Part shown: positions 1 through 62,984 of the stretch, piece by piece
Numbering within the stretch: position 1 is the first letter of the stretch
Layout of the letters: every line of letters begins with the position of its first letter
NCBI GenBank assembly: GCA_030538215.1
Contig: JAUNUM010000001.1
Span: 63,472-127,471, forward strand
Length of the DNA stretch: 64,000 bases
From: Bacteroidia bacterium
GTDB lineage: Bacteria; Bacteroidota; Bacteroidia; Bacteroidales; Dysgonomonadaceae
Reading direction: 5' to 3'
Program-made: the position numbers and the translations under genes
Notes under the pieces: model-generated
The model's database searches: none
The model's input: the letters and a program-made list of their open reading frames with translations, nothing else
Told to the model about the DNA's origin: nothing

Positions 1-975
1 ATGAGTGAATTAATTATTGAACCTATTGAAAAGTACGGCCTCAATATAAGCCACGAGAACAAAGCGCTATTTTCGAGAATTGGCGTTGTGGGAGCCGGAA
101 AAGAAGGGCGAACCATTATCAATCTTACCGCATCGGCAGGGATGGAGGTTGTTTTTATGGAAGAGTCGCAAGAGCGCATCGGTTATGTGCTTGAGGAGTT
201 GAATAAAACGATGGACCAAAAAATCAGCAACTGGGGTTTGACACATTCGGAGAAAAAAATAATAATGAACCGAATAACTCCCACCCTCAATTATGATGAT
301 TTTAAAGGATGCGATCTGGTTATTGAGTGTACACGATTTTCCGAAACAGGACGAAGAAGCACTCCTTTGCGAAAAAGCATCTTCAAGAAGTTAGAAGAAA
401 TACTTGAACCCGATGCTATTATAGCCACAAACGGCTCCACCGTTATCATTAGTGAACTGGCAGCCGATCTCGATATTAAAGATCGCTGCGTGAGCCTTTA
501 CTTTCCGGTCTCGCATCCCGATGCCAGAATTCTAGAAATAGTAAAGGGCATGTACACATCGGAAAAAGTGTACAATAAAATGGAAATCTTCGCTAAACTT
601 ATCAATTATCGTTCTCATCGTATCAACGAAAGCAACGGAAATATCAGCTTACGCATGCTAACTATTATGCTTAACGAAGCTTGTCAGATTTTGCTCGAAG
701 GAGTAAGTGACATGCAAAGCATTGAGGAAACCTTTACGGTTATTTACGGTCAGCGTTATGGGATTTTCAGAATCGCGGATATTGTAGGTATAGAGCGCTT
801 AGTAACCCTTATGGAAGCCATGTTTAATGATTTTGGAGAAAAGCATTACAAGCCCAATCCATTATTGTGGAAACTGTATCGATCTAACCAATTGGGAGTA
901 CGTACAGGTAAAGGGTTCTATTTATATGATGAAGATAATAACATTATTTCAGAAAATAAATCGTTGTTTAATTGA
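1..975 (+). CDS. 3-hydroxyacyl-CoA dehydrogenase-like protein, catalytic residues altered
   Basis: The 324-residue protein has the two-domain layout of 3-hydroxyacyl-CoA dehydrogenases: a Rossmann fold with GxGxxG at residues 31-36 and a helical C-terminal domain ending in a GVRTGKGFYLYD motif like the family's R.G.KtG.GFY. The family reaction is NAD-dependent oxidation of 3-hydroxyacyl-CoA. The catalytic Ser is kept (S146), but the His of the usual HFFNP block is Tyr (Y167) and the Asn of the GFxxNR block is Leu (L217), by my alignment. It may therefore be inactive as a dehydrogenase or have another role. It lies 48 bp upstream of ackA on the same strand and is probably co-transcribed. The ATG is the first base of the window, so a further upstream start cannot be excluded, although 30 residues already precede the nucleotide motif. 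Confidence 0.75.
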   Translation: MSELIIEPIEKYGLNISHENKALFSRIGVVGAGKEGRTIINLTASAGMEVVFMEESQERIGYVLEELNKTMDQKISNWGLTHSEKKIIMNRITPTLNYDDFKGCDLVIECTRFSETGRRSTPLRKSIFKKLEEILEPDAIIATNGSTVIISELAADLDIKDRCVSLYFPVSHPDARILEIVKGMYTSEKVYNKMEIFAKLINYRSHRINESNGNISLRMLTIMLNEACQILLEGVSDMQSIEETFTVIYGQRYGIFRIADIVGIERLVTLMEAMFNDFGEKHYKPNPLLWKLYRSNQLGVRTGKGFYLYDEDNNIISENKSLFN

Positions 976-3614: not shown

Positions 3615-4532
3615 TTATAATGCTATCACCGGGCTTTTCCACACCCTATATTTCACCTGAAATCCTTTAGGAACAAAAATAACAGTTGGCATATTGCTGT
3701 TATAAGAAATCGTTTGGGTTTGTCCGTAAATAAATTTTTCGGCAGCATCATCAGGGCAGCCCATTCTGGTGGAGCTGTACTTGCTATCAGAATCAAAGAT
3801 CAAATACTGATACCCGAATCCTTTTACGATTTCAGTTTTAATATTCCCGTTGAGGGTGTGTTGATTACAGTCGACTTTCTCTGTTTTCCCGGGTATAATT
3901 TCCACTTTCAGTTCATCGGTTGTCATTTGTTTTTCAGACAGGGGGGTTAGCAGCAATACATACCTATCGTATCCGGGAAGAGATTCCGGAAAATCTTTTA
4001 ATGCCTGAGTTGCATCATTTTTCACCGCATCATCAATTTTATCGCTCACATCAAACATATTTTTGTCCGCTTCCCAAATTCTGTATTTAAGTCCTATGCC
4101 ATTTGGCGTATATACTACAAAGGGGCGAGCGCTATTGTAAGCGATAAAAATAGTGGGACCGGGAACAAAGGCTATTCTTTTGGAGTTATCAGGACAACCC
4201 ATGCGAGTAGAGAAAACTTCTCCTTTGGAAAGAAAAACAAAATAGGTTTCTCCGTTGGGAAGCATTTTACGTTCATATTTTCCTTGCAGCCCGTGCCTGT
4301 TGCAATCAACTTCCATTTGTTTGCCTGGCACAACTTGCACTTTTAATAAATTCTCATCCTCACGCGGATCAACTTTTATTACTTGTGCGTTAAATCCGTT
4401 TAATTTAGGATATTCATACAGCATTGCTTGTTCATCTTGCGTATAAGTAGTATCAGGTGGCAGAGCATTTTTTTTACTGCCGCAAGATAATAGTAAAGTA
4501 ATCGATAAAAGCAGAAAAAGGCGGATCTTCAT
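3615..4532 (-). CDS. lipoprotein with two tandem ecotin domains (serine protease inhibitor)
   Basis: Ecotin is normally a periplasmic homodimeric inhibitor of trypsin-fold serine proteases with one domain of about 140 residues. This 305-residue protein carries two copies after an SPII signal peptide (lipobox LLLSC, Cys17). Domain 1 spans about residues 38-155: VDCN with C77, FSTRMGCPD with C113, YNSARPFVVYTP and KYRIW. Domain 2 spans about 178-300: VDCN with C222, SSTRMGCPD with C259, YNSNMPTVIFVP and KYRVW. Each Cys pair matches the ecotin disulfide that frames the reactive loop. The P1 residue by alignment is Arg in both (R110 and R256; Met in E. coli ecotin). The C-terminal strand of ecotin makes the dimer, so the tandem copy could fold as an internal pseudo-dimer. 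It stands alone between rpsF and the U32 gene. Confidence 0.88.
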   Translation of the reverse strand: MKIRLFLLLSITLLLSCGSKKNALPPDTTYTQDEQAMLYEYPKLNGFNAQVIKVDPREDENLLKVQVVPGKQMEVDCNRHGLQGKYERKMLPNGETYFVFLSKGEVFSTRMGCPDNSKRIAFVPGPTIFIAYNSARPFVVYTPNGIGLKYRIWEADKNMFDVSDKIDDAVKNDATQALKDFPESLPGYDRYVLLLTPLSEKQMTTDELKVEIIPGKTEKVDCNQHTLNGNIKTEIVKGFGYQYLIFDSDSKYSSTRMGCPDDAAEKFIYGQTQTISYNSNMPTVIFVPKGFQVKYRVWKSPVIAL

Positions 4533-46436: not shown

Positions 46437-47417
46437 TTATGGATTAATTTTTTGGATAAAATAGCCATAGTTTAGTTTGTCGTCAGCCACAAAAGAATAG
46501 ATTGCCCAGATGAGGATACCGTCATTCTTAACAATCTCAAAGTTAGCAGGCTGATCTTCATATGTATTCCAACTATCCCAAAAATAGTAGGATAACAGAG
46601 CATTCTCTTTCTTACCTATATTTTTATCTCCCGAAAATTTTATTTTTAAATAATGATCTTCATAAAAAGCCCAACCATAGAAATTCATACCCTCCTCAAC
46701 GGTATTATAATATTCTATATCTGTGTGCTCATATCCATGTTTAAAAGGATTATCATTATTAAATATATAGCAGGTAGCTATCTGAGCTTTAATCTCTTCC
46801 AATTCTTTTTCGGTATAAGGGATAGTGGTTGTAGCGACTTTTACCGTGAACGTCTTTTCTAATCCTTTTGCATCCTTTAGAGTTAGTTTTGTTTCTCCGC
46901 TTTTTTTGCCGGTAACGGAAATCGTACTGTTATTGATAGTTACCGTGGCAATATCTTCATTTTCGGATGTTACTACGTATCCGTTATTTCCTTTTAAGAT
47001 TTTAATGGTTTCGGTTTTTGTCTCACCTAAACGCATTTGCAGGTCGAGTGCTTCTTTGTCGGCGGTAATTTTATCGTAATAAGAGATTACTTTTATTTGC
47101 AGATAACGGCTTTGCTTATCTGAGACGATAATTGCCGTTTCACCACTCGATAATCCTGTTATTTTTACTTTATTGTCTGTTATTTCGGCTTTTGCAATAT
47201 TATCGTTTAACGAAAAAGCCTTGTAGTCACCTTCGCCTTGTTTAATATCGACAATCTCACTTTTATCAACCAAAATATTGACAAATTTATTGCTTAACTC
47301 AAACTTGGGAAGTATTATTTCTTTCTCTATTCCTTTGGGTTTATCGTCTTTACAGCTCCAAAAGAGTGGCATTAACACAAACGATAAAACGATTAATAAT
47401 ATATATTTTACTTTCAT
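46437..47417 (-). CDS. Ig-like (BIG2-type) surface lipoprotein
   Basis: The 326-residue protein has an SPII signal (PLFWSC, Cys22), two bacterial Ig-like repeats (about residues 35-110 and 112-195; ISVTGKKSGETKLTLKDAKG is typical) and a C-terminal beta domain. It has no catalytic motif and is likely a glycan-binding or spacer protein of the PUL. It is the last gene of module A, 33 bp after the GH18 gene. Confidence 0.75.
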   Translation of the reverse strand: MKVKYILLIVLSFVLMPLFWSCKDDKPKGIEKEIILPKFELSNKFVNILVDKSEIVDIKQGEGDYKAFSLNDNIAKAEITDNKVKITGLSSGETAIIVSDKQSRYLQIKVISYYDKITADKEALDLQMRLGETKTETIKILKGNNGYVVTSENEDIATVTINNSTISVTGKKSGETKLTLKDAKGLEKTFTVKVATTTIPYTEKELEEIKAQIATCYIFNNDNPFKHGYEHTDIEYYNTVEEGMNFYGWAFYEDHYLKIKFSGDKNIGKKENALLSYYFWDSWNTYEDQPANFEIVKNDGILIWAIYSFVADDKLNYGYFIQKINP

Positions 47418-47450
47418 TGTCTTTTTTGTTACAAGTGTAAATAATTAAAT

Positions 47451-48851
47451 TTATTTCCAGTCTTTTGCATAAGGCTTTTCGTTATAAACAAGCTCGTCAT
47501 CAAACAAGATATCAGCAACTTGCCGGAGCGATGAAAGCTGGGCATCTTTAAAATTGTAGCGAAAGGGATTAAGCGAGAATATCATGTGTGCGCCATATTC
47601 TTCTTCTCGTAATCTGCGCAAATTCACATCGTAGGCAAAATTATTTCTACCATACTCTTGCGAGTAAAGTCCCATAGCCGACTTGGGCATACCCGGAAAA
47701 CTGTCGCTTAAATCGTATCCTTGATTATAATCGTGCAGCGCATAATCTACAAATGCTCCCGATTGTACTCCATCTACATCGGGCAATGAACTTGTGAGGC
47801 TGTAAACATATACCGAAACTATTTTGTGAGGCATCGCTTTTTTGGTTTCGTAACACAAACGTGCTGCTGCTTGTCTTGATGGATTTACAAAGCCGGGAGG
47901 TGGCGGCATTTGGTAAGAAGAATATTCATCATCAAAAAACACTCCGTCTAATTTATAAGCATCGCAAACTGCTTTCAACTCTTGCGCAAATGCACGTGCG
48001 GTTGCATCTGAGAGGTTGGCTACGCCTGAACGATCGTGATTTCCCAAAATACCCAGTATAACTTTTATTCCGTTATCTTGTAGCGGTTTTATATACTTCT
48101 CGCGATTATCGAGCAAATGTTGCACATTAGGATTATTGTACACATAAACACGTCCGGTTTCGTTATTGTAATTGATGTTTGCCGAAAACAAAATAACTTG
48201 ATCAAACAGCGGCTTTCCACTCTTTTTTAGCGTAAAACATAAATTATTGAGTGGATTTGTATCGTTGACTTCCATACAGCTAACAATTTTTATCCCCGTG
48301 GCTTTATCCGATGTTGGCATTTTTGATAAATCTTTCACAAGAATAATAAAATTAGATTCTTTTTCAGCCATAACTATACCGCCCGACTTTATTTGCGTAC
48401 TGAGAGGAAGCGCATACGTGATATTGGCATCAAGCGAAGCGTTGGAGGTAAGAGTGATTTCTAATTTCTCAGACTTTTTACTTTCTTTTGCTACCTTCAA
48501 GTCGCTCCCAAGTGTTACCAACGTCTGTGGCAATAAAATATAATTTGTATTATTGGCTTTATTGTAGGCTTCCAAAACCGCAGGATCGTATTTTATTGCA
48601 GCTACGGCATCTTCTTTGGCCGCTTTGGTTAATGCCAGATAAACTTCAACTTGGCTTTTGTTGCGTAATTCAACAAAACCAACATTTCGTTTTCCTTGTC
48701 CGTCAAGAATATATCCTATGGGCTTGTCTGTTGTTGCGTACTTATTCTCATCAATTTTTCCTATTTCTATATTTTCATTGCATGCTGAGAAAATAATTCC
48801 CGTTGCAATAATAAGTCCCAATATATATGTTTTTAAAAATATACTTCTCAT
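47451..48851 (-). CDS. GH18 endo-beta-N-acetylglucosaminidase with DUF1735 domain
   Basis: The 466-residue lipoprotein (FSAC, Cys24) has a DUF1735 beta-sandwich (about 30-180) followed by a GH18 TIM barrel. The active-site motif is LDGVFFDDEYSSY at 301-313. The acid/base is E309 with D307 two residues before it. The usual Asp at the fourth position of DxxDxDxE is Phe305. This form is close to EndoH/EndoF1-type and to the endoglycosidase of the high-mannose N-glycan locus of B. thetaiotaomicron. It cleaves the chitobiose core of N-glycans at the cell surface. It follows a LamG protein by 25 bp. Confidence 0.88.
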   Translation of the reverse strand: MRSIFLKTYILGLIIATGIIFSACNENIEIGKIDENKYATTDKPIGYILDGQGKRNVGFVELRNKSQVEVYLALTKAAKEDAVAAIKYDPAVLEAYNKANNTNYILLPQTLVTLGSDLKVAKESKKSEKLEITLTSNASLDANITYALPLSTQIKSGGIVMAEKESNFIILVKDLSKMPTSDKATGIKIVSCMEVNDTNPLNNLCFTLKKSGKPLFDQVILFSANINYNNETGRVYVYNNPNVQHLLDNREKYIKPLQDNGIKVILGILGNHDRSGVANLSDATARAFAQELKAVCDAYKLDGVFFDDEYSSYQMPPPPGFVNPSRQAAARLCYETKKAMPHKIVSVYVYSLTSSLPDVDGVQSGAFVDYALHDYNQGYDLSDSFPGMPKSAMGLYSQEYGRNNFAYDVNLRRLREEEYGAHMIFSLNPFRYNFKDAQLSSLRQVADILFDDELVYNEKPYAKDWK

Positions 48852-48876
48852 GTTATTTAAAATTTAATCATTATAG

Positions 48877-50016
48877 TTATTTTGCTTTCGGAAGCGATAC
48901 TTGTACCCATTTCAATGTTTTTGAAGCTATGGCATTGTTTCCGTTGGCAGTATGGTCTCTGATGGTAAGTGGCTGCTCATCATCAAATTTCCAATAAGCA
49001 ACCAACCCTTTAGTATCGGGAGCAACCGAGTATGAATTAGTGGCTATTTCTTCTTGCGTGCGAACCACATTCCAGATTCTGCATTCCGATATTTCTCCTG
49101 ATAAGAAACGATCGTTAGCGTAAGAACGTCCGATACAGAAGCCATTTACTCCTCTTCTTCCTAAATTTACTTTTCCTACATTCTTGGTGTCTTCTGATTG
49201 TTTTTTGCCATTCACGTAAATAATCATTTTGCCATCGGCAGAGTTGTATGTAAGAGCAATATGTGTCCACTCATTGGTGGGTAACCCCTTTTTAGAATCT
49301 CCATCGGGAAAGTTTCCACGATTAGTTGCTACTTGAATCTGATTTGAGGGGAAACCGGCGTCGCCAAGACGAATCAAAAATTGTCCTTCGATACCCATAA
49401 CGGTACTGATCATTTTATCGTAATTGCGTACTTTAATAAGCGCTTCCATTGTGAGTGTTGAAAGATTATTGCACACTTCCGGCTTTTTCCAATCAATAGT
49501 AAGATAATTCTCTTCTATATCGGCAACCACGTTTATAAGTGCACCGGCTTTTACCACATAGTACATTGTTCTTGCACTTTCAAGCACATTGATGCTCGCA
49601 GAAGCTATGGTTATGGGTAGAACGAAAATAGTTTCTCTATTTAATTTCGATAAATCTTTAAATTTCAAAAGAGTTTCATCCGAAGTTACATTTCCTGCCG
49701 GAATAGACGCTTCGGTCTTCGCTAATTCGAAATTGGGAGCAGGCAAAGCAACAGCTTTATCGGAATATGCTTTGTTGTAGTTATCCACGAGCGTGAAATC
49801 GGGTTTGTAAGTAATTTTCACTTCTTGTTGCTCGGGTTTGGCAATGGCAGCTTGTATATTTCTGGTAAGCTCCGGAGTACTACCCTTCAGTATTAACTCA
49901 TTTACTTTTGATGAAGTTTTGAGAAACACTTTGTTGTCGTATGTTTCATTGTCTTTGTCGCAGCTCAACAACAAGCTTATCGACATAACTAATAAAAATA
50001 TATTTAGTTTCTTCAT
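48877..50016 (-). CDS. DUF1735-LamG surface lipoprotein
   Basis: The 379-residue lipoprotein (SLLLSC, Cys19) has a DUF1735 domain (about 25-160; ALPAPNFELAKTEASIPAG) and a concanavalin A-like LamG_3 domain (about 175-375; LTMEALIKVRNYDKM, TNEWTHIALTYNSADGKMIIYVNG, SGEISECRIWNVVRTQEEI). It probably binds glycan at the surface. Its paralogue is at 59078. It starts 1 bp after the stop of the dead GH18 gene. Confidence 0.85.
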   Translation of the reverse strand: MKKLNIFLLVMSISLLLSCDKDNETYDNKVFLKTSSKVNELILKGSTPELTRNIQAAIAKPEQQEVKITYKPDFTLVDNYNKAYSDKAVALPAPNFELAKTEASIPAGNVTSDETLLKFKDLSKLNRETIFVLPITIASASINVLESARTMYYVVKAGALINVVADIEENYLTIDWKKPEVCNNLSTLTMEALIKVRNYDKMISTVMGIEGQFLIRLGDAGFPSNQIQVATNRGNFPDGDSKKGLPTNEWTHIALTYNSADGKMIIYVNGKKQSEDTKNVGKVNLGRRGVNGFCIGRSYANDRFLSGEISECRIWNVVRTQEEIATNSYSVAPDTKGLVAYWKFDDEQPLTIRDHTANGNNAIASKTLKWVQVSLPKAK

Positions 50017-50017
50017 T

Positions 50018-51076
50018 TTATTTCGTTTTAGGCGAGGGATTAAGTATATTTATTGCATTTCTTGTATATAAATATGATATTCTCAACGAGTTAAAATAAT
50101 CGTTGTTAACATTATATATTCCTATACCGGCTATTGATGGAGTTGTTGATGCCGTAATCCAATTGGCAGTACCCCATAAGGAGCGAATATTATTTATCCA
50201 GTATCCGGTTTTTGTATCTTTAACATCGGTAGATGTGGTGGATACTGCTATAATAAAACGATCGGTTGGTACACCTCCCACACTTGCCATAGCCATACTG
50301 TAGTCTAATCCCGATACGTTTTTAATATCTACGCAAGGTATAATAATGTGTGTGCAGGAGTTGAGAATGCTTTTATTCAACAGATTTTGCGGATAGCCTT
50401 CAAAACAAATCATCTTGTCTTTATTTCTATCTTGCCAATCCTTGGCGATGCCAATAAATGCATTTTCATACATAATGTGTATTCTTTTTTCACTTTCAGT
50501 CATGTGAAGAATACTTTTTCCTTTGTATGCCATAGAGATACCATCGTAATTATATTTGCGTATTAGTGACAATGAACTCTCTACCGTATCTACTAAGAAT
50601 TCAATAAAATCGAGCTTTGGAGCATCTTTTTTATCTTTATTCTGTTCTGCCATCTCTTTAACTCTCGCATCAAAAATTAATTTGATAGCATCGAAATCTA
50701 ATGTAAAAATCACCTTAGTGCCTTTGTCTTTCCTGATGGTTTCTATCTCGGCAAGTTCCCAATCTGCTAAACTTTTGGGATGCATCAACGATACTACGTC
50801 AACACTATCCGGTAGTGTTGTAAGATGTTGCGATTGTCCTGCCGGTTGCTTTTGGCTATTGTTGAACCACACGTATGTTTGTTTGTGAGCCGATTTTTTA
50901 TACGCTTTTAAATCTTCCAGATATTTTGCGTATAATTCCGAGTTTTGTTCGGCTATATTTGCCTGTTTTAGTTCTATGCTCTTCACTTCGTTCCAATCGG
51001 AACAAGCGGTAAGAATAAATCCCATGAGAACTAACAATATCAAATTATGTTTCATTTGTATATTTATATTTTTCAC
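50018..51076 (-). CDS. catalytically dead GH18-like lipoprotein
   Basis: The 352-residue lipoprotein (ILTAC) has the GH18 fold seen in module B's enzyme (SVDVVSLMHPKSL with SVDVVSMWGRW, IRKYNYDGI with IDKYNYDGF, then IIIPCVD). At the active site the DxxDxDxE motif reads DGISMAYK (residues 178-185): the second and third Asp and the Glu are Ser, Ala and Lys. It cannot use the family mechanism and is probably a glycan-binding protein. It lies 17 bp after susD. A start seven residues in (ATG at 51055) is possible. Confidence 0.85.
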   Translation of the reverse strand: MKNINIQMKHNLILLVLMGFILTACSDWNEVKSIELKQANIAEQNSELYAKYLEDLKAYKKSAHKQTYVWFNNSQKQPAGQSQHLTTLPDSVDVVSLMHPKSLADWELAEIETIRKDKGTKVIFTLDFDAIKLIFDARVKEMAEQNKDKKDAPKLDFIEFLVDTVESSLSLIRKYNYDGISMAYKGKSILHMTESEKRIHIMYENAFIGIAKDWQDRNKDKMICFEGYPQNLLNKSILNSCTHIIIPCVDIKNVSGLDYSMAMASVGGVPTDRFIIAVSTTSTDVKDTKTGYWINNIRSLWGTANWITASTTPSIAGIGIYNVNNDYFNSLRISYLYTRNAINILNPSPKTK

Positions 51077-51093
51077 GTTAAAACTTTAATTAT

Positions 51094-52677
51094 TTATTTT
51101 TTCTTATCCCACCAAACACGTGTGCCCATATTATCGGGACCTTTAAGGTAGTTGGCAATGGCGTAGTTAACATTAGTTTCATTAGAAGTAATTTCCTGCT
51201 GTGGATATTTCAGCCTACGCGCTCCCAAATTAGTATCTACCTCGCCTGAGCTGTTATTGACTACAACCGGAAAAAGAATGGGATAACCGGTACGACGATA
51301 TTCTGACCATGATTCTATATTCAAAAACGGAAAATTGGCAATCCATTTTTGAGTTATAATTCGCTCAAGGTTTTTCTCAAAATCGGCAGTTGCATCCCAT
51401 GCGATGGTAATTACACTTGTTGCTCCGCTATAATTGTAATCTCCCAGTGGATCTTTATACGAATCGGGTTTACTTTCTTTATCGGCAAGATATGTGTCTG
51501 CACCTTCTGCACCCCATTGAGCAAAGGATGCTTGAACTCCTTTTTTATAAAACTCTTCGGCTGTTCCGCCCATGCTCCAACCTCTTAAAGCTCCTTCGGC
51601 TCTTAAGAAATAAACTTCAGCCGCACCCATAATAAGAACCGGTGTCGTTGCCGTTATATTGAAATTAGTATAAGCCTGTGCAGTAATTGCCGGAGGAACG
51701 GGTGCACCTCGACGAAGTCCATAGAATCCGTTTTCAACATCATCAAGCTTTGAAGAGATAAAATACTTAGATGCACGCGGATCTTTATATCCGTTCATAT
51801 ACGAGGTGATATCTGCTGCAACTCGTATATCGCCTCCATTCCACACGTGCGATGCCAAGTAAAGAGGATTACCGTCTTTGCCAAAATTGGAGTATTGGGC
51901 GTTATCGGTATTTGCCGTGAAAACCCCTACAGGATGTTTTATTGCTTCTTCCGCCATTTGCTGTGCCAATGCCGGATCTGCATATACAATACGTATTGCC
52001 AAGCGAAGTTTGAGCGAATTGGCAAACTTAATCCAAGATCTTACGTTTCCTGCATACATCTTATCGATTAATACACTAAATGACAAGCTTATATTTTCAG
52101 GCTTACTCAATATTTCGGTAGCGTGATTAAGCTCTTTAAACATCTCTTTGTAAACGATCTCTTGCGCATCTAATGCTGTTGTCAAAGCCCCATTTTCTCC
52201 AATCTTTGTATAAGGTATAGGCCCATAGGTATCCGTTACTTTGTGTAGAATGGCAACTTTTAGTATTTCTCCAACGGCGAGTAGCACCTCATCTTTTGTC
52301 ACACCCTTGAGTGACGAATAATTCTGAAATGCAAGCGGAATATCTTCCATATATGATTTTCCTATCCAACTGCTCTCCGGTTTGTATATAGCAAAATTCT
52401 TTCCATAAAAACCGGGATTTGCATCGGCGCCATATCCGCACCAATTAGCCCCCATCAACTGCTCTACGAACTGATTTCTCCAAGGGTTTGACACCGCTGC
52501 TCCTCCCTGCAGATTAATAACAAAAGCACTTACTTTGTATTGGTTACCTTCTAATATTTTTGCATCTGCTTCATAAGGATTTGTATTTATGTCGGGGAAT
52601 CCGGCAGTACAAGACGTCAATCCCATAAATACCAACAGGGTAGATATGATTGTTTGTTTTATAGTTGTTTTTTTCAT
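51094..52677 (-). CDS. SusD-like lipoprotein, module A
   Basis: The 527-residue lipoprotein (MGLTSC) is of the SusD/RagB family (SusD-like 2 type) with helical TPR scaffold: YAGNVRSWIKFANSLKLRLAIRI and AAEVYFLRAEGALRGWSMGG are typical, and the C-terminus has ITQKWIANFPFLNIESWSEYRRTGYP. It caps the SusC channel and binds the incoming oligosaccharide. It is 12 bp after susC. Confidence 0.93.
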   Translation of the reverse strand: MKKTTIKQTIISTLLVFMGLTSCTAGFPDINTNPYEADAKILEGNQYKVSAFVINLQGGAAVSNPWRNQFVEQLMGANWCGYGADANPGFYGKNFAIYKPESSWIGKSYMEDIPLAFQNYSSLKGVTKDEVLLAVGEILKVAILHKVTDTYGPIPYTKIGENGALTTALDAQEIVYKEMFKELNHATEILSKPENISLSFSVLIDKMYAGNVRSWIKFANSLKLRLAIRIVYADPALAQQMAEEAIKHPVGVFTANTDNAQYSNFGKDGNPLYLASHVWNGGDIRVAADITSYMNGYKDPRASKYFISSKLDDVENGFYGLRRGAPVPPAITAQAYTNFNITATTPVLIMGAAEVYFLRAEGALRGWSMGGTAEEFYKKGVQASFAQWGAEGADTYLADKESKPDSYKDPLGDYNYSGATSVITIAWDATADFEKNLERIITQKWIANFPFLNIESWSEYRRTGYPILFPVVVNNSSGEVDTNLGARRLKYPQQEITSNETNVNYAIANYLKGPDNMGTRVWWDKKK

Positions 52678-52689
52678 ACTGATTCTCGA

Positions 52690-55600
52690 TTAAAAATTAA
52701 GTCTTACATTTACTCCAATATTGCGCGTGGAGGGTGTCATAAAATTATCAATACCCTGATAATAGTTATTGGTTGAAGCTACCGACTCGGGATCGAAAGG
52801 AGCTTTGCAATAAATCATCCATAAGTTACGTCCCACTACCGATATACTTGCATCAAAAATATTATTGAACCATTTTCGAGGAAATGTATATCCAATACTT
52901 GCTTCTTGCAAACGAACATTGGTGGCATCATAAGTATAATATTGAGGTATTCCTGAGCCAACACCTATTGTTGAATACCATTTTTGGGCATCAATATGAT
53001 CTTGTCCGTTAATAAGGATACCGCCGTTATCTCTGGCGATAGCAGATGCTTTTGACACACCAAAGTAGTCGAGACCGGCTTGTGTACCTGAGTAGACGAC
53101 ACCGCCAAACCGCGCCGAAAGCATAAATCCAAAATGCAATCCACCCAAAGAGAAATCGTTTCTCCAAGCCATATTTGATTTCGGAAATACTGATCCCAAT
53201 TTGATATATTTATTAAATTCGCGAATTTCATCCTTCGCTATGTTTCCTTTTTCGTCAACATAGATAGCACCTCGATCATCTCTAATCATATCTGTAGTAG
53301 AATAAATATCGCCCAAAGTTCCTCCTTTTTTAAGAATGAATTTAGGCCCATATCCACCCAAATCTAAATGATCGAGCGAAAAAGATTCGCCGGTTATAGG
53401 ATTCGTAGCGTTATCTGCCAAGTCTATAATAGTGTTCTTGTTAAAACTAAAAGTGTAGTTGGATGCCCACATGAATTTATTCCACGTTTGGCTATATCCC
53501 AAAGAAAACTCCATTCCTTCGTTTAACACATTTCCGGTTTGGATATAGATGTTAGACCAACCTGATGATGCAGATATATTGGGATTAAAAGTTTGGTTTG
53601 CAGTATTTGCCCGATAATAAGTTAAGTCGAGATTAAATCCGGCAACACGTGCATTTAATCCAAACTCCCATGAGTTTGTGCGTTCGGGTTTCAAATTATA
53701 CATGGGATAGTTAGTAGATAGTGACCATGTTTTATTTTCGGCATTCCATTTATAGGTTGGATTTGCCAAGAAGCGTTTAAACGGTAATCCCACCGATGCC
53801 CATGAGCCACGCACCTTGAGATACGAAAAAGCTTTAGGCAAATTAATTATCTCTGACAATACCACCGATGCTCCCACCGAAGGATAAAAGAATGATTTGT
53901 TGGATGAATTAGGACCCGCCAACTGCGATGCCCAATCGTTACGCCCCGTAAGCGTGAGATAGTATGTGCTTTTATATCCTACTTCGGCGCTGGCAAATAT
54001 AGAGTTTGTACGTTCGCGCCAACCTTCTTGCACACGAAGTGTTTGTGCATCGCTCAGCTGAAACACATTAAAAAGATTGGGAACCCCCGGATTCTCATAT
54101 ACCGGATTTCCGTCTTTATCGTATCCGGTTTGTGCGCCATAGAGAATAGGACCATTGGTGCCCAACAAATCCGAATGGATATCGGTTGTGGAGACACCGC
54201 CATTTATAGCAAGTGTTACGCTATTATCGAAATTCTTGTTGATGTTTACCAAAAAATCGGCATATGTTTGTTTATCGATAGAGCGGTTAATACCATAGTA
54301 TCCATTCGGTGATTTTTCGGCAAGTAGCAATGCAGTAGAGGCATATCTTTTATCAGTAGCGGTATTATTGCTATTGTCCATTTTAAATCGGGATGAAATT
54401 CCCAGCCAATCCAATATCTGATAGCTCAATCCGGCATTAATCATATAACGATCTCTTTTATTTTCGCGTACGTTTCTATAATTAACCCAGTAAGGATTTT
54501 GCATCAATAAGCCGGCTTCACCGGATGGCCAATACTGCGTATATATGCTTCTGTCCTTATCCCAACGCTCATACATTTGAATATCTTTCCAGTCGTTTCC
54601 GCGAGGAAATAGATAAGCTCCTACCAATGGATTATGATATGTTCCTTGGTTTATCATATTCCGGTCGTTTTGCATAATATAGCTCACTCCTAAATCCAGC
54701 TTCATTTTATCGTCTAAAAACGATGTTGTATTCCGAAATGTTAAGTTATATCGATTGTATTTATTGTTAGGGATAATACCTTTTGAATTAACGGCAGATG
54801 CCGAAAGGTAAGTTTGGTTTTTATCATTTCCCACCGATAGGGCAACGGATTCCGTTCCCACCACTCCTGTTTTGAAGTAATCTTTTCGGGGATTGTATCC
54901 CATAAAATTAGCATCATTCAGTTTTGTTCCCCAGCTTTTATATACTTCCGAGGTGCCGTAAGTATTTTGAAATTGAGGAAGCAGAAATGGCTGGAGTATC
55001 TCGGTATTACTGGTAACCGTTACATTAATTTTTCCGATTTTTCCTTTTTTGGTTGTTATCATAATAGCACCATTCGCAGCATCGCTGCCATAAAGTGCTG
55101 CAGCTGCCGCTCCGGACAATACGGATATAGATTCGATATCTTCCGGGTTAAGGTCGGCAATACCTTCCGATGAACCTGCTGAGTTGAAAGCTCCGGTAGC
55201 TCCGCCGCTTCCAAAATTATACATCGGCACGCCATCTATCACGTAGAGAGCGTTGCTCGATTGCTCAATACTTTTTGTTCCACGCATCACAACTTTACTC
55301 GCCCCCCCAATACCTGACGATGAGCTGTTGATATTAAGTCCGGCCACTTTTCCCGAAAGAGAATTAACAAAGTTGACATCTTTAACGGCTGTAATATCTT
55401 CGGCTTTCACTTGCTGCACGTTATAGCTCAGCGCTTTTTCCGAACGTTTAATACCCAATGCGGTTACCACCACCTCGCCTAATATTTCGCCGTCTTCTTT
55501 TAAAATAACGCTCAAAGTGGTTTTTCCGGCAGTACTTATGGTTTGAGACACATACCCGATATAGGAAAAAGTGAGCTTTGTGTCATTATCAACAGATAAG

Positions 55601-56094
55601 GAGAACTTTCCATCAATATCGGTAGCTGCTCCAACACCTGCTTCTTCGGCAATAACGTTAACTCCGATTAACGGTTCGTTTTTTTCGTCAACAACCGTTC
55701 CGGTTATTTTTCTTTTGGGAGTTTCTGTCGGTTTTGCGGGGATAATCATCACATAACCGTCTTTTATCTGATAGGTAAATCCGGTTCCGACAAGTGCTTG
55801 TGAAAGCGCATTTTCAACTGAATCGCCACTTATATCCAACTGAATGTTTTTCTGATTCTTCAGTTGCGACTCGTTGTAAGCGATAGACATTTTTGACTGT
55901 TTCTCAATCTCTTGTAGTGCTTCAATAACCGATATGTTATTCTTCTTTATGGTTATTTTTGTGTTGTTTTGAGCAAAAGCATTTGTTTGTATGGTAATTA
56001 AACAAAAGAGCAGTATAAAAAACCGTGCTTTTGCGCTCATAGTTCGATAAAAATTCATAAATTTGATCTTTGTTTTTGGTGTCAGATTCGACAT
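52690..56094 (-). CDS. SusC-like TonB-dependent transporter with STN domain, module A
   Basis: The 1134-residue protein has a signal peptide (TNAFAQ), an STN secretin-like domain (about 45-110; ITIKKNNISVIEALQEIEKQ), a carboxypeptidase-like repeat (ITGTVVDEKNEPLIGVNVIAEE), a TonB box region, the plug (ALYVIDGVPM) and a barrel ending in GVNVRLNF. The STN domain talks to an FecR anti-sigma factor, and FecR lies 145 bp upstream. The start at 56094 or 56058 is open. It drives TonB-dependent import of oligosaccharides. Confidence 0.94.
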   Translation of the reverse strand: MSNLTPKTKIKFMNFYRTMSAKARFFILLFCLITIQTNAFAQNNTKITIKKNNISVIEALQEIEKQSKMSIAYNESQLKNQKNIQLDISGDSVENALSQALVGTGFTYQIKDGYVMIIPAKPTETPKRKITGTVVDEKNEPLIGVNVIAEEAGVGAATDIDGKFSLSVDNDTKLTFSYIGYVSQTISTAGKTTLSVILKEDGEILGEVVVTALGIKRSEKALSYNVQQVKAEDITAVKDVNFVNSLSGKVAGLNINSSSSGIGGASKVVMRGTKSIEQSSNALYVIDGVPMYNFGSGGATGAFNSAGSSEGIADLNPEDIESISVLSGAAAAALYGSDAANGAIMITTKKGKIGKINVTVTSNTEILQPFLLPQFQNTYGTSEVYKSWGTKLNDANFMGYNPRKDYFKTGVVGTESVALSVGNDKNQTYLSASAVNSKGIIPNNKYNRYNLTFRNTTSFLDDKMKLDLGVSYIMQNDRNMINQGTYHNPLVGAYLFPRGNDWKDIQMYERWDKDRSIYTQYWPSGEAGLLMQNPYWVNYRNVRENKRDRYMINAGLSYQILDWLGISSRFKMDNSNNTATDKRYASTALLLAEKSPNGYYGINRSIDKQTYADFLVNINKNFDNSVTLAINGGVSTTDIHSDLLGTNGPILYGAQTGYDKDGNPVYENPGVPNLFNVFQLSDAQTLRVQEGWRERTNSIFASAEVGYKSTYYLTLTGRNDWASQLAGPNSSNKSFFYPSVGASVVLSEIINLPKAFSYLKVRGSWASVGLPFKRFLANPTYKWNAENKTWSLSTNYPMYNLKPERTNSWEFGLNARVAGFNLDLTYYRANTANQTFNPNISASSGWSNIYIQTGNVLNEGMEFSLGYSQTWNKFMWASNYTFSFNKNTIIDLADNATNPITGESFSLDHLDLGGYGPKFILKKGGTLGDIYSTTDMIRDDRGAIYVDEKGNIAKDEIREFNKYIKLGSVFPKSNMAWRNDFSLGGLHFGFMLSARFGGVVYSGTQAGLDYFGVSKASAIARDNGGILINGQDHIDAQKWYSTIGVGSGIPQYYTYDATNVRLQEASIGYTFPRKWFNNIFDASISVVGRNLWMIYCKAPFDPESVASTNNYYQGIDNFMTPSTRNIGVNVRLNF

Positions 56095-56138
56095 TTAATT
56101 GTTTGTCATTGTAAGAATGTAAATTCTGATGCTATTCT

Positions 56139-56169
56139 TCCGGAATGAAGTTTGCGGCTTTATTCCGGA
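56139..56169. repeat. inverted repeat between fecR and susC
   Basis: TCCGGAAT and ATTCCGGA are perfect 8-bp arms around 15 bases in the 145-bp gap. The T-run is on the plus-strand side, so for the minus-strand genes it is not a normal terminator. It might lie at an ECF promoter or leader. Confidence 0.6.
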
Positions 56170-56239
56170 TCTTTTTTATTACGAGGTATTATTCATTTTC
56201 TATAATAGTTTAAGTTATTAATATCATTTTCTGGTTTTC

Positions 56240-57220
56240 TCAATGAGTTATTATATAGCAAATATCATTTTCTATTCGGTATTGAACATTTCCTGCTACT
56301 TGGGAAATAATATCCATTACCTCAGCTAAAGTAGCTTTTTCCCTAAATCTAAATGTGTATTTATCGTTTTTAAGACCACTTAAGTTATACAAAAACTCAT
56401 AGGGGTATTTTCTTTCCAAAATAGTAATAATTTCTTTTAGAGTGGTACTCCTAAAGACAAGTTCTCCTCTTTGCCAAGCAGTTGCATCGAGCATATCGGG
56501 AGAGTTTATTAAATCTTGTTTTGTGTGTTTATTGTAAGCTAATTGTTGACCGGGCGAGAGCACGGTGGCAGTCTCTAAATTGTTGTACTCCACTTTCACA
56601 CTTCCTGAGATAACGGTAGCACGCAACACAGAATCTTCGGGATATGCAAAAACATCGAACTCGGTACCCAATACGGTTACTTGAAAATCGGAAGATTTTA
56701 CGATAAATGGCTTCTCTGTATCAGGCGTTACTTTAAAATTTGCTTCTCCCATCAGATAAACGCTTCGGCTTCTTCCATCGAAAGTTTCGGGATAAAGTAA
56801 TATGCTTTGAGAATTGAGTTGTACACGGCTGCCATCGGGCAAGGTTACGTGATGCATTTCGGCAATGGGCACATATTGTTCTATCAAATCGGGAGTCTTA
56901 CGGTTATTATGAAATATGTAAAAATATAGAGATGATAGCAGTGCAAAAATTAGAATGGCGGCAGCCGTTTGCCAATATTGCAACAAGCGGGTTGTTTTTT
57001 TCGATGAAACAGTAGCTTGTCTCTTCTCTTTCACTTGTTGCAATGAGAATGTAGTGCTTGCTAACTGCTTGGAAGAAGTGTTGTCCCACAGTTTTTTGAG
57101 TGCTTCGTCTTTTTCTTCGGTATGTTTTTCGTCAATCAGCCATTGATGAAAGGCTTCTTTTCCGGTTTCCGAAATGTTATGTGTGGTAAAAAAGTCAATT
57201 ATTTTCTGAAAATAGTTCAT
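56240..57220 (-). CDS. FecR-family anti-sigma factor
   Basis: The 326-residue protein has an N-terminal cytoplasmic part (1-80), one membrane helix (about 86-103), the FecR domain (about 115-215; HHVTLPDGSRVQLNSQS, LYPETFDGRSRSVYLMGEANFKV) and a C-terminal DUF4974/STN-like part (about 245-320). It holds the ECF sigma inactive until the STN domain of SusC signals. It lies 67 bp after the sigma gene. Confidence 0.93.
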   Translation of the reverse strand: MNYFQKIIDFFTTHNISETGKEAFHQWLIDEKHTEEKDEALKKLWDNTSSKQLASTTFSLQQVKEKRQATVSSKKTTRLLQYWQTAAAILIFALLSSLYFYIFHNNRKTPDLIEQYVPIAEMHHVTLPDGSRVQLNSQSILLYPETFDGRSRSVYLMGEANFKVTPDTEKPFIVKSSDFQVTVLGTEFDVFAYPEDSVLRATVISGSVKVEYNNLETATVLSPGQQLAYNKHTKQDLINSPDMLDATAWQRGELVFRSTTLKEIITILERKYPYEFLYNLSGLKNDKYTFRFREKATLAEVMDIISQVAGNVQYRIENDICYIITH

Positions 57221-57287
57221 TCTACTCGTTTTTCATGCGCAGAAATACGCATTAGTATATATAATACGACTAACTTGAAACGAGTAC

Positions 57288-57842
57288 TTAAAAGAAAATA
57301 AAAAAAAGCGAATAAATTATTATTTTCTTTAAATCGGATAATGCTAAATAAATGTGATGTTCTACAGTTCTGACAGATAGGTTAAGTTGATCGGCAATTT
57401 CTTGGTTCGACATTTTTTCAAATCGGCTCATCGTAAAAACCTGTTTTCGCTTCTCGGGCATTTGCTCTAAAGCCAATAATATAAGCAGCTTAACTTCTTC
57501 ATAGTATAATGTATCTAATGGATTTTGGTTATCCAAATCGCCCGATAACATATAGTCCTCTATTTTTTCATCCCGATAAGCGCGTTCCACTTTTTTGTGT
57601 TTAATTAAATCTAAGATTTGATTTTTTGTCATGGCATAAAGGTATCCCTCTGCCGATTTATAATCATTTATCCATAAATCGGGAGCATTCCACAATTTCA
57701 TAAAAATATCCTGTGCTATGTCTTCTGCCTCAAAATCAGATTTTAATAGCATAGCTGCAAAGTTTTTCACTTTTGGGAAGTAAAGGGTAAAAAACTTTTC
57801 AAACTGTTGGTCTAGATTTTTTGTATCAGTTTCCTTAAACAT
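57288..57842 (-). CDS. ECF-type RNA polymerase sigma factor
   Basis: The 184-residue protein has sigma-70 region 2 (FEAEDIAQDIFMKLW, AEGYLYAMTKNQILDLIKHKK) and region 4 (ALEQMPEKRKQVFTMSRFEKMSNQEIADQLNLSVRTVEHHIYLAL). It belongs to the FecI-like group used in Bacteroidetes PULs. It probably drives module A and perhaps module B when glycan is sensed. The C-terminus ends in a hydrophobic stretch (IIIYSLFFIFF), which is unusual for a soluble sigma factor. Confidence 0.93.
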   Translation of the reverse strand: MFKETDTKNLDQQFEKFFTLYFPKVKNFAAMLLKSDFEAEDIAQDIFMKLWNAPDLWINDYKSAEGYLYAMTKNQILDLIKHKKVERAYRDEKIEDYMLSGDLDNQNPLDTLYYEEVKLLILLALEQMPEKRKQVFTMSRFEKMSNQEIADQLNLSVRTVEHHIYLALSDLKKIIIYSLFFIFF

Positions 57843-57964
57843 TGCTTTTCTCTCTCAACCAGGTTTTCTCATTAATAATAAGTGGAAAACAGTGTACAAA
57901 GATAAACATTTACTCGATTATTTTACTTTTATGAAAAATGACCTAAAAGCTCAAAATAAAAAAA

Positions 57965-58002
57965 TCTGCAAGAAATCAGTTTTATAACTAACTTCTTGCA
58001 GA
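57965..58002 (-). terminator. terminator of PUL module B
   Basis: TCTGCAAGAA and TTCTTGCAGA pair around an inner AGTT/AACT stem. A T-run follows on the minus strand. The outer arms are identical to those of the module A terminator. Confidence 0.85.
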
Positions 58003-58024
58003 CTTACAAATAGGAATGAATTAA

Positions 58025-59017
58025 TTATTTTATGAGGCTTATTTCAGAAATATCAGGCTGAACAGCCCCGGTTAATGTTAAAAAACGCTCAAACCTAAAC
58101 ATCTTTCCAGAAACTGGTTGTTTAAATTTAATATAAAACTCGGTTCCTACCTCTTTTGTGGTAAATGTACCTTGAACAATGGATCCGCTAGCTCTGCTTG
58201 TTAGAATTCTTACTGATGCAAACTGCCATCTTCCATTATCCGTATTAATTTTAAATCCTTTGATTAATTCCTCTTTTTCAAGATGAAGTTCTACATAAGT
58301 TAAAGCATTGGATGGGTACCAGAATTGTTCCGTTATATCCCCATTTATGAGCACAGAAAGATTAGTAGTTTTATTGGATTTTAATGTTACCCCACTATTA
58401 AACACCTCTCCTTCGATTAGCTTATTAGATGAATCAACATTATCAAGAATAGAGTTTATTCTTCCAAAAACATTTATTCCATCCAGATTAGAGCTAATAT
58501 TTTCAGTTTTACCATTAACTGAAGCTATTCTAACAGGCAATTGAACCTGCTTCTCAATCTCAGAAACCTTTTCATCTAACTTAAGAATAATTAAAATGGA
58601 GTCTTTTGATTCTTTTTGTCCTGATTCAATAAACACTTCATCCTTTTTAATTACATAATTATTTTTAGGAAGAAGCATGTAGTCGGTCTTGTTCTTCTCA
58701 TTGTAACTCGTAACATATTTTTCATCCACATCAAACTTCACAGCCATTCTCTCTGTTGCAGGAGTTGTTATTTTTACCGGAAATTTAATTATAGTATCTC
58801 CTTGTATTGTTACAGTTTTTTCTACTTCCATATAAGTAGCCGTAAAGCCATATTCATTGAGAGGAGACGTAAGTGTGTTGACATAGACTTTTGTTTTATA
58901 GTCCGGAGCATCTTTACCCAAAAAAGGGACATAAGGGTCAGGCTTGCCATAATCATCACATGATGTGATAAACAATATTGCAAATAGCGTGAAAATAATT
59001 ATAAATATATTTTTCAT
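58025..59017 (-). CDS. DUF1735 lipoprotein with discoidin-like C-terminus
   Basis: The 330-residue lipoprotein (FITSC, Cys20) has a DUF1735 domain (about 55-175; ITTPATERMAVKFDVDEKYVTSYNEKNKTDYMLLP) and a C-terminal jelly roll like F5/8 type C domains (about 185-330; NKLIEGEVFNSG, GFKINTDNGRWQFASVRIL). It is likely a surface glycan-binding protein. It is the last gene of module B, 60 bp after the LamG gene, followed by a terminator. Confidence 0.78.
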   Translation of the reverse strand: MKNIFIIIFTLFAILFITSCDDYGKPDPYVPFLGKDAPDYKTKVYVNTLTSPLNEYGFTATYMEVEKTVTIQGDTIIKFPVKITTPATERMAVKFDVDEKYVTSYNEKNKTDYMLLPKNNYVIKKDEVFIESGQKESKDSILIILKLDEKVSEIEKQVQLPVRIASVNGKTENISSNLDGINVFGRINSILDNVDSSNKLIEGEVFNSGVTLKSNKTTNLSVLINGDITEQFWYPSNALTYVELHLEKEELIKGFKINTDNGRWQFASVRILTSRASGSIVQGTFTTKEVGTEFYIKFKQPVSGKMFRFERFLTLTGAVQPDISEISLIK

Positions 59018-59077
59018 CTCGTTTCTTTTTAAGATAAGAGAGAAAGCTAAAAAGCTTCCCTCTTAAAGTTTGCGTAA

Positions 59078-60280
59078 TTAATCGTTAAAATTTATTCTTC
59101 CTTTGTTATCTGATCGAACATTGTCTAACCATCGTAATGGAGTACTTGGTTCAATAATGAGATTAGGTGCACCCGAAACAGAGTTCTTCAGTTCATGCCC
59201 CTGCCCTTCATTCATTTTCCAATACATTATTAAGCCTTCGGTTTTAGGATTTATTGTGTATTGATTATTTATAATTTGTTCTTTGGTACGTGATATATTC
59301 CATAACCTCACTTCACTCATCATACAACCATTTACAAACCATTCCCTGCCAGAACTTGCAATATATATTTTATCTCGGGCTGTTGTTACTTTTCCTGGCC
59401 ATTTATCGGTATTTACATCTTCTTCTCCATTTATATAAAGTGTGAAAATAGAACCATCATAAGTTACAGCAATATGATACCATGTATTCGGCTCAAACTC
59501 TTTAATGGAGCGATCAAACTGACTGCCTGCAAACTTCACTTGTAATGTATTGAATGGTGTAGGAGCATCACCGAATCGCATATAAATTTCGCTATCTGGC
59601 CCCCATATTCCAAAAAGAGCTTGGTTGTTTCTTTGAAATCCGCTCATATTTACTCGCATCTCAACCGTCCAAGCACTTAATACAAGATCTTTAGCTAAAG
59701 GTGCCGAGGCGGAGTGATAAACTCCAGTTTTAGGATCGGTTCCAAGCACAGGCACAGAAGTTACTATTACTTGATCTATTTGATAAATAATAGTGTTTGC
59801 TCCATCTATCACGGTAACATCCGTTCCATCAATAGGTTTAGCCGTCAAAGCTAATGCATATTGATTTCCGGTTTCAACCATTTCTTTGCTTAATCCCTTT
59901 AGAGTAATATTTACAGTAGGTGCAAGTGTCTCTCCTTTCTTTATCACTATTTCGGTCTGATCTAGTTTAAAGTTTTCCACAGGCAACGCCACAAAGTTTG
60001 TACTGTTTCGTTTATTGTAGGCTTCCAGTGCAGCCGGATCAGCTACAAGTGTTACTTTAACGTCTTGTCCCGCGGGATTGCTGGAGCGAACTGTTGCCGT
60101 AACATTTGCCCCCTGATCATCTATAGTTATTTTTTTTCGGGCATTGGATGATGTTGCAGTTTCTGCCAAAAACAACCGATTATCGAGAGAGCTGTACTCA
60201 GCATTATTGCAACTATAAAATGGCAGCAGAGTTAGCAGAGTTAACCCCATCAACCATAGTTTATTGGTATTTTTATTCAT
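59078..60280 (-). CDS. DUF1735-LamG surface lipoprotein, module B
   Basis: The 400-residue lipoprotein (LPFYSC, Cys24) parallels the protein at 48877. It has DUF1735 (about 35-170; VALPVENFKLDQTEIVIKKGE) and LamG_3 (about 195-385; WTVEMRVNMSGFQRN, EPNTWYHIAVTYDGSIFTLYINGEEDVN, MMSEVRLWNISRTKEQI). It is likely a glycan-binding lipoprotein. It is 19 bp after the GH18 gene. Confidence 0.85.
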   Translation of the reverse strand: MNKNTNKLWLMGLTLLTLLPFYSCNNAEYSSLDNRLFLAETATSSNARKKITIDDQGANVTATVRSSNPAGQDVKVTLVADPAALEAYNKRNSTNFVALPVENFKLDQTEIVIKKGETLAPTVNITLKGLSKEMVETGNQYALALTAKPIDGTDVTVIDGANTIIYQIDQVIVTSVPVLGTDPKTGVYHSASAPLAKDLVLSAWTVEMRVNMSGFQRNNQALFGIWGPDSEIYMRFGDAPTPFNTLQVKFAGSQFDRSIKEFEPNTWYHIAVTYDGSIFTLYINGEEDVNTDKWPGKVTTARDKIYIASSGREWFVNGCMMSEVRLWNISRTKEQIINNQYTINPKTEGLIMYWKMNEGQGHELKNSVSGAPNLIIEPSTPLRWLDNVRSDNKGRINFND

Positions 60281-60299
60281 AATTTTAGTTTTTTATTAA

Positions 60300-61400
60300 T
60301 TAACGGACTGCCGGATTCATAATCTGAATTCCTTTTCGTAAATACGGATAGGTTATTGTGCCAAATCCGGAAACTCTATACTCATATTCCATATGATAGG
60401 TGCCGATGCCGCCTTTTTGAACTTTTTTTCCATTAATAATTGGAGTCCAGCGTGCCATTCCTTCTAAAGATTTATATTGTTTACCATATCTATCGATATA
60501 ATTAACACCACCGGCAGTTGCATAATTTTCAAAGTTTTCTGTTACAACATATTTTTTTGCAACCTCTTCGGGAGTCAACACCCCCTTAAAATTGTTTATT
60601 GTTGAAGTTAAACGACGGTCTAAATCCGAATCACCGTAACTTTGATATGCCTGCACAATAAAGTAGTTAAAATAAGGGCCTGATTCAGGCGGCATTGACT
60701 GAGGTTCTCCATCAATAACAAAAAGTCTCTCTCTGCCTTTTTCCGTTTCTGCTTTTGGACCGATTCTTTTTCCCATAGTTTTTACAAATGTCATCATTCT
60801 ATCGGGATATCCACTTAGATTTCCTCTGTGCCCATAATTAGGCTCAAAGTCAATATCAAAGCCATCGTAGTTATATTTATCAATTGTATCGCACAGAGCA
60901 TTCGTATATTTTTCGATAGCGGCATGAATTGACTGGTCATTTCCATCTTTCCATCCCCAGTATTCTTTAACGCTCTTCATATCTTTATTATGGGATTCAG
61001 GAGTTATATTACCACCTCCTAAATCTTGAACAATGAAAACTACAAGCGCTTTCAATCCTTTTACTTCTTGACAAAAACGCAGGTCTTCCAACTGCTCTTT
61101 TGTTGGATTCGCCCAACGTCCCCACATAGATACTACATCAACACTGTCTGGCAAACCTGCCATTGAGCCTTGAAGATTAGCACCACTACCAGTCCAGTTA
61201 CCAAACCATCCGAAAGCAATAGGATGATCTGACTTTTTATATTCACGGAGATTAGCGTAATATTCAGGTGTTTTATACGTGCTTAAGGCTCCTACTAATT
61301 GAGTGGGTTGAAGAGGTTCTGTCATTGTCCAGTCTTTACACGAAGTCAAAAACAAACTTAAACCCAGTAAACCGAGGAGTATTTTATTTATTTTTTTCAT
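60300..61400 (-). CDS. GH18 endo-beta-N-acetylglucosaminidase, module B
   Basis: The 366-residue lipoprotein (LFLTSC, Cys21) has the GH18 barrel with a complete motif DGFDIDFE (residues 179-186, catalytic E186). IAFGWFGNW and SVDVVSMWGRW mark the early strands. It would cleave the chitobiose core of N-glycans. The ATG at 61400 is chosen because the usual signal peptide starts there; a start at 61430 would overlap susD. It shares its order susC-susD-GH18-LamG with module A, where the GH18 in this position is dead. Confidence 0.9.
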   Translation of the reverse strand: MKKINKILLGLLGLSLFLTSCKDWTMTEPLQPTQLVGALSTYKTPEYYANLREYKKSDHPIAFGWFGNWTGSGANLQGSMAGLPDSVDVVSMWGRWANPTKEQLEDLRFCQEVKGLKALVVFIVQDLGGGNITPESHNKDMKSVKEYWGWKDGNDQSIHAAIEKYTNALCDTIDKYNYDGFDIDFEPNYGHRGNLSGYPDRMMTFVKTMGKRIGPKAETEKGRERLFVIDGEPQSMPPESGPYFNYFIVQAYQSYGDSDLDRRLTSTINNFKGVLTPEEVAKKYVVTENFENYATAGGVNYIDRYGKQYKSLEGMARWTPIINGKKVQKGGIGTYHMEYEYRVSGFGTITYPYLRKGIQIMNPAVR

Positions 61401-61411
61401 ATTATTAACCA

Positions 61412-62980: not shown

Positions 62981-62984
62981 TTAT

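Follow-up and report, generated by a model that had tools for sequence, protein, structure and literature searches.

A tandem ecotin lipoprotein of Dysgonomonadaceae as a predicted built-in dimer with arginine at both P1 positions

The window, the whole 64,000-nucleotide stretch of DNA analysed here from a member of the Dysgonomonadaceae, encodes a lipoprotein that carries two ecotin domains in one chain (Table 1). We establish the domain identity, reactive loops, anchoring motif and conservation pattern of this protein, which is best read as an ecotin dimer built into one chain and shifted from a broad range of targets to trypsin-like ones. In its full form, to which we assign a probability of about 0.65, the proposal is that of a predicted dimer on an outer-membrane lipid anchor, whose arginine heads would act against trypsin-like proteases and thereby protect the envelope; inhibition, location and targets are putative. 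The architecture is new within a known family, being lipid-anchored, probably dimeric by construction, composed of diverging halves and presumably inhibitory. Our search of the open literature found no paper on a tandem ecotin, and priority is uncertain given that subscription literature lay outside the search.

Table 1. Features of the tandem ecotin gene and its product, in positions of the window
Feature	Position	Strand	Basis
Tandem-ecotin lipoprotein, 305 aa	3615..4532	-	ORF with ATG start; PF03974 twice; NF002987
Signal peptide II with lipobox Cys17, then GSKKNA without acidic surface-export signal	4482..4532	-	Sequence reading; lipobox comparison; charge comparison
Ecotin domain 1, residues 41-155	4068..4412	-	PF03974 5.7e-31; model superposition
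Reactive loop 1, STRMGCPD, P1 = Arg110 (codon CGC)	4188..4211	-	Alignment to E. coli position 84; codon
C-terminal arm of domain 1 plus linker, residues 154-181	3990..4073	-	Alignment and model
Ecotin domain 2, residues 178-299	3636..4001	-	PF03974 1.2e-35
Reactive loop 2, STRMGCPD, P1 = Arg256 (codon AGA)	3750..3773	-	Alignment to E. coli; codon
Shortened domain-2 C-terminal tail, 7 residues after Trp298	3618..3638	-	Tail-length comparison and models

Scored separately against the PF03974 profile, the halves reach 107.5 bits (5.7e-31) and 122.5 bits (1.2e-35), both far over the cut-off of 22.2, and the whole protein scores 234 against the NCBIfam ecotin model NF002987 (cut-off 162). The two halves, which share 39% identity, are the sole ecotin matches in their genome. 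A signal peptide precedes the lipobox LLLS-C17, and a lipobox cysteine is present in all tandem relatives. Alignment to E. coli ecotin places the Cys50-Cys87 pair around the reactive loop at C77/C113 in domain 1 and C222/C259 in domain 2, and position 84 (P1) at R110 and R256, both within STRMGCPD. The original prediction of one lipoprotein with two ecotin domains, each with the cysteine pair, the loop and a P1 arginine, is thus borne out, down to its coordinates (3615-4532, minus strand) and residue numbers. Its description of both domains as complete holds for the fold and primary loop of domain 1, which are intact, but not for its secondary site, where the 60s loop is one residue short, W67 is missing and Arg108 is replaced by Ala. 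Likewise, the KYR(I/V)W motif does occur in both halves, as KYRIW and KYRVW, but the dimer arm of E. coli ecotin consists of residues 133-142, after the Trp of KYRVW (PMC7773321).

Among solved structures, E. coli ecotins come closest, M84R forms included. With E. coli ecotin (Eco; PF03974) the window protein shares the fold, the Cys50-Cys87 disulfide, the substrate-like 80s loop and the KYRVW strand, and its STRM loop is the same as that of the engineered M84R variant. However, E. coli ecotin is a soluble periplasmic single-domain homodimer with Met at P1 and an intact site 2, whereas the window protein is lipid-anchored and fused, with Arg at P1 twice and a weakened site 2. The single-domain ecotins of the same bacterial family, from genus g2 (probably Dysgonomonas, as we infer), belong to the same Pfam family as the tandem but have Met at P1 nearly throughout, intact Arg108 and WGY, an 11-residue tail and, judged by eye, mostly signal peptide I. 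An enlarged ecotin-family protein has been described, but its second part is not ecotin (PMC9904509). A cationic binding-loop residue, as in the window protein, is found in the ecotins of Tatumella citrea (Arg) and Burkholderia glumae (Lys), which are single ecotins from plant pathogens (PMC9904509).

To model the protein, we used AlphaFold2 with ten tandem sequences (model 1; pLDDT 83.5, pTM 0.75) and repeated the prediction with a Petrimonas IBARAKI relative, 36% identical, as the lead sequence of the same alignment (model 2; pTM 0.71). In a Foldseek search with the window-protein model, the top 29 matches were all ecotin; the fold reached VIA Z values of 11.6 and 15.3 for the window-protein and relative's models, respectively, and domain 1 fits onto ecotin chains that come from protease complexes. 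Chains of dimeric, arm-exchanged ecotins align to residues 15-148 of model 1 as one run (132-134 aligned, rmsd about 1.8 A), while 1ifg aligns over 16..286 (129 aligned, rmsd 1.9) and, in the relative's model, over 20..279 (128 aligned, rmsd 1.9 A). In keeping with its title ('monomeric form'), we take 1ifg to be a monomeric ecotin with the arm folded back on its own chain. Because its range spans both domains, the last strand of domain 2 would sit where 1ifg folds back its own arm. We infer from these alignment ranges, in two models that share one alignment, that the halves pack as an intramolecular arm-swapped dimer, in line with the packing that had been anticipated; tail exchange between molecules could also occur.

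The two domains might instead behave as independent heads on a string, binding two proteases separately or pairing with domains of other chains into larger assemblies. Few regions of the models are predicted with less confidence than the linker (block pLDDT 64 and 60), the domain-2 tails are shortened (in the window protein, 7 residues past Trp298 versus 11 typical of single-domain relatives), and E. coli ecotin deprived of its arm forms a stable monomer, which remains functional when P1 is Arg (PMC9136129). We nevertheless regard this arrangement as unlikely, given the pTM values of both models, the extension of the 1ifg range across both domains in two divergent proteins and a linker length that is kept in most tandems.

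Ecotin is present in 34 of the 101 genomes searched from the family. Reading of the open reading frames assigned the tandem to 17 of these, from the Petrimonas/Proteiniphilum group, a count that includes one genome (G432) in which the tandem is inferred across a run of N; the remaining ecotin genomes have the single-domain form. Two of the tandem carriers are single-contig genomes (G436 and G437), and in named records the tandem group falls with Petrimonas, Proteiniphilum and Dysgonomonadaceae MAGs. Samples of 395 genomes from the phylum and 395 from the class contained no tandem, and the 393 genomes sampled from the order yielded the sole case found outside the family, a divergent one (G087, another family of the same order) in which domain 1 has lost the Cys pair and reactive loop. 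The scan of named genomes relied on a single Arg/Gln-loop pattern and would have passed over any tandem outside the family whose loops differ. The 17 family genomes, two of them single-contig, the 39% identity between halves and the different Arg codons rule out an assembly artefact or a recent duplication.

The collection also contains related arrangements. In genome G430, of the same genus, the tandem (L031, L050) clusters with Proteiniphilum (g213) copies and sits at another locus, which suggests transfer within the family. A tandem ecotin on a contig filed as an uncultured Clostridia MAG (L057) gives the same match as a Proteiniphilum contig (L056), and the former contig is probably mis-binned. 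Another genome of the same genus encodes a fusion of one ecotin domain with a META domain (L019, G433:C18; PF03724, 1.8e-22), and two tandem-carrying genomes (G447 and G445) also encode an ecotin with an ATRMGCPE loop, hence Arg at P1, and a long C-terminal part without a Pfam match (L022, L023).

Gene neighbourhoods of the tandem are common only within genus groups: it adjoins a U32 peptidase gene in g1, g209 and g210, with rpsF as a further neighbour in g1, and a dinB-like gene in g217. No protease partner recurs among the flanks across the genus groups compared, which led us to reject a conserved partner gene, and no dedicated target gene lies beside the tandem gene. Elsewhere in the window (46437-63971), two adjacent SusC/SusD-type clusters are accompanied by GH18-like lipoproteins and a sigma/anti-sigma pair.

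In a tree of individual domains, the 16 copies of domain 2 cluster together (92/91; 95% of bootstraps), which fits one fusion origin; the domain-1 copies require two changes, and those of g217 fall near single-domain ecotins without firm support. The simplest reading of the sequences would be one ancient fusion followed by divergence. This divergence is uneven, as 102 of 105 species pairs show stronger conservation in domain 2 than in domain 1. Arginine occupies P1 in 13 of 16 domain-2 loops (6 of 7 by lineage) versus 1 of 16 domain-1 loops, the latter being that of the window (Fisher p = 4e-5, a descriptive value, since the rows are related). Elsewhere among the tandems, the P1 residue of domain 1 is Leu, Met, Thr, Gln or Ala. 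Paired arginines are thus the window species' own state and not a hallmark of tandems, and their different codons (CGC and AGA) fit convergence. Among 20 single-domain ecotins, P1 is Met in 18, Leu in 1 and Arg in 1, the last belonging to an ecotin that is extended at its C-terminus.

The secondary protease-binding site appears changed as well. In E. coli ecotin, a protease is gripped jointly by site 1 of one subunit and by site 2 of its partner; the residues Arg108 and Asn110 are important at site 2, and Arg at P1 boosts site 1 and offsets a weakened site 2 or a lost arm (PMC9136129). Arg108 survives in 18 of 20 single-domain ecotins, in 4 of the 16 copies of domain 2 and in 1 of the 16 copies of domain 1. 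Of these 16 domain-1 copies, 10 have a shortened 60s loop. In the window protein, the 67-70 and 108-113 loops are eroded in domain 1 (no W67, A108, N110 kept) and partly kept in domain 2 (FGYQ, S108, N110), while the family's single-domain ecotins combine Met at P1, nearly throughout, with an intact secondary site. By sequence, the secondary site therefore appears eroded, mostly in domain 1, and the window protein resembles the engineered 'site1R/site2A' ecotin, a likeness known here from sequence alone.

It is tempting to view the tandem as a natural hetero-ecotin in which fusion let the halves specialise, domain 2 becoming fixed on Arg for trypsin-like proteases and domain 1 serving as another head (Leu, Met, Thr or others) while site 2 eroded mainly there. 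One molecule could then inhibit two protease classes, and the window species would have converted to a double-trypsin form; we put this forward tentatively, at somewhat less than even odds. Alternatively, domain 1 may be in decay and retained chiefly for dimerisation, with domain 2 alone inhibitory across the family. Its variable P1, the frequent shortening of its 60s loop, the near-complete loss of Arg108 and the G087 copy devoid of Cys pair and loop all suit such decay. We doubt it, however, since domain 1 of the window protein has a canonical STRMGCPD loop and its Cys pair, and the loops STMMACPD in g217 and STLM(A/G)CPD in five others are near those of working ecotins.

In Bacteroidota, lipoproteins exposed at the surface have an acidic signal following the cysteine, such as K-(D/E)2, SDDDD or SDDFE (PMC5080379). 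Positions +2 to +7 of the window protein read GSKKNA and are net basic, those of the tandem relatives are basic or neutral, and none of the tandems has a K-(D/E)2 or SDDDD-like signal after the cysteine; at these positions, the remaining lipoproteins that we detected in the window range from neutral to acidic. Because the N-terminus carries no acidic surface-export signal, periplasm-facing anchoring seems likelier than surface display, although the signals compared come from other Bacteroidota and may not be those of this genus. The surface location originally envisaged is accordingly unlikely. A periplasm-facing anchor in turn fits an external target poorly, S1 proteases being bulky for entry into the periplasm, unless the envelope is damaged, the protein is carried on vesicles or the surface is reached.

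Concerning the targets, the expectation of trypsin-like specificity fared better. Arginine at P1 would fit trypsin-like enzymes, and structures exist of ecotin M84R, which has the same STRM loop, bound to factor Xa, factor XIa and trypsin. The original prediction further considered host enzymes at the cell surface, and an inhibitor exposed there or carried on vesicles might be aimed at animal-host trypsin. P1 Arg suits trypsin, and human trypsin-2 ranks in the top 20 sewage proteins by abundance (PMC10399289), sewage being a possible habitat of related bacteria. Yet the basic or neutral residues after the lipidated cysteine speak against such exposure, and the named carriers, judged by title, look like anaerobic, reactor, sludge and environmental MAG lineages, which makes an animal-host target improbable. 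Wastewater peptidases favour Lys or Arg at P1 (PMC12119764), so that, together with sewage trypsin-2, the probable habitats of some carriers would expose them to trypsin-like enzymes; a sludge proteome paper contains nothing on host proteases.

The same genome encodes DegP/HtrA and, outside the window, a trypsin-fold protease (L061, G000:C113:39118-41400; about 769 aa) that bears a T9SS type A sorting domain. The lipoprotein might guard the periplasm from the cell's own trypsin-fold proteases in transit, this exported S1 enzyme being one example, and a periplasm-facing anchor would place the inhibitor on the protease's route. The protease occurs in 12 of 17 tandem carriers versus 38 of 84 other genomes (odds ratio 2.9), a co-occurrence that is not significant (p = 0.067) and is driven by phylogeny. 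Moreover, it is near universal in Petrimonas/Proteiniphilum genera with or without the tandem, is missing from all five tandem carriers of g210 and g217, and shows no gene linkage to the tandem. A self target, the other possibility raised at the outset, is hence not clearly supported, and we consider it quite unlikely.

We thus favour the built-in dimer, working as follows. An ancient duplication would have fused two ecotin domains into an outer-membrane lipoprotein, probably facing the periplasm, whose halves pair like ecotin dimer subunits and swap C-terminal segments inside one chain; with the swap internal, the dimer would be preformed and a second molecule needless. In each half, a substrate-like loop with P1 Arg may occupy and block the active site in serine proteases of the trypsin-like type; the opposite half would provide a secondary contact, weakened here, the strong Arg contact making up for the loss. 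The likely role would be to shield envelope proteins from trypsin-like proteases entering from proteolytic surroundings.

Finally, how far the breadth of ecotin rests on symmetric dimerisation is an active question, which has been answered through engineered mutants (PMC9136129). Evolution seems to have done the same experiment in the tandems, with a dimer built in, symmetry broken and P1 Arg joined to a weakened secondary site. The tandem ecotins supply natural asymmetric scaffolds for dual-specificity inhibitors, and with them anaerobic waste-degrading bacteria may defend themselves against trypsin-like proteases.
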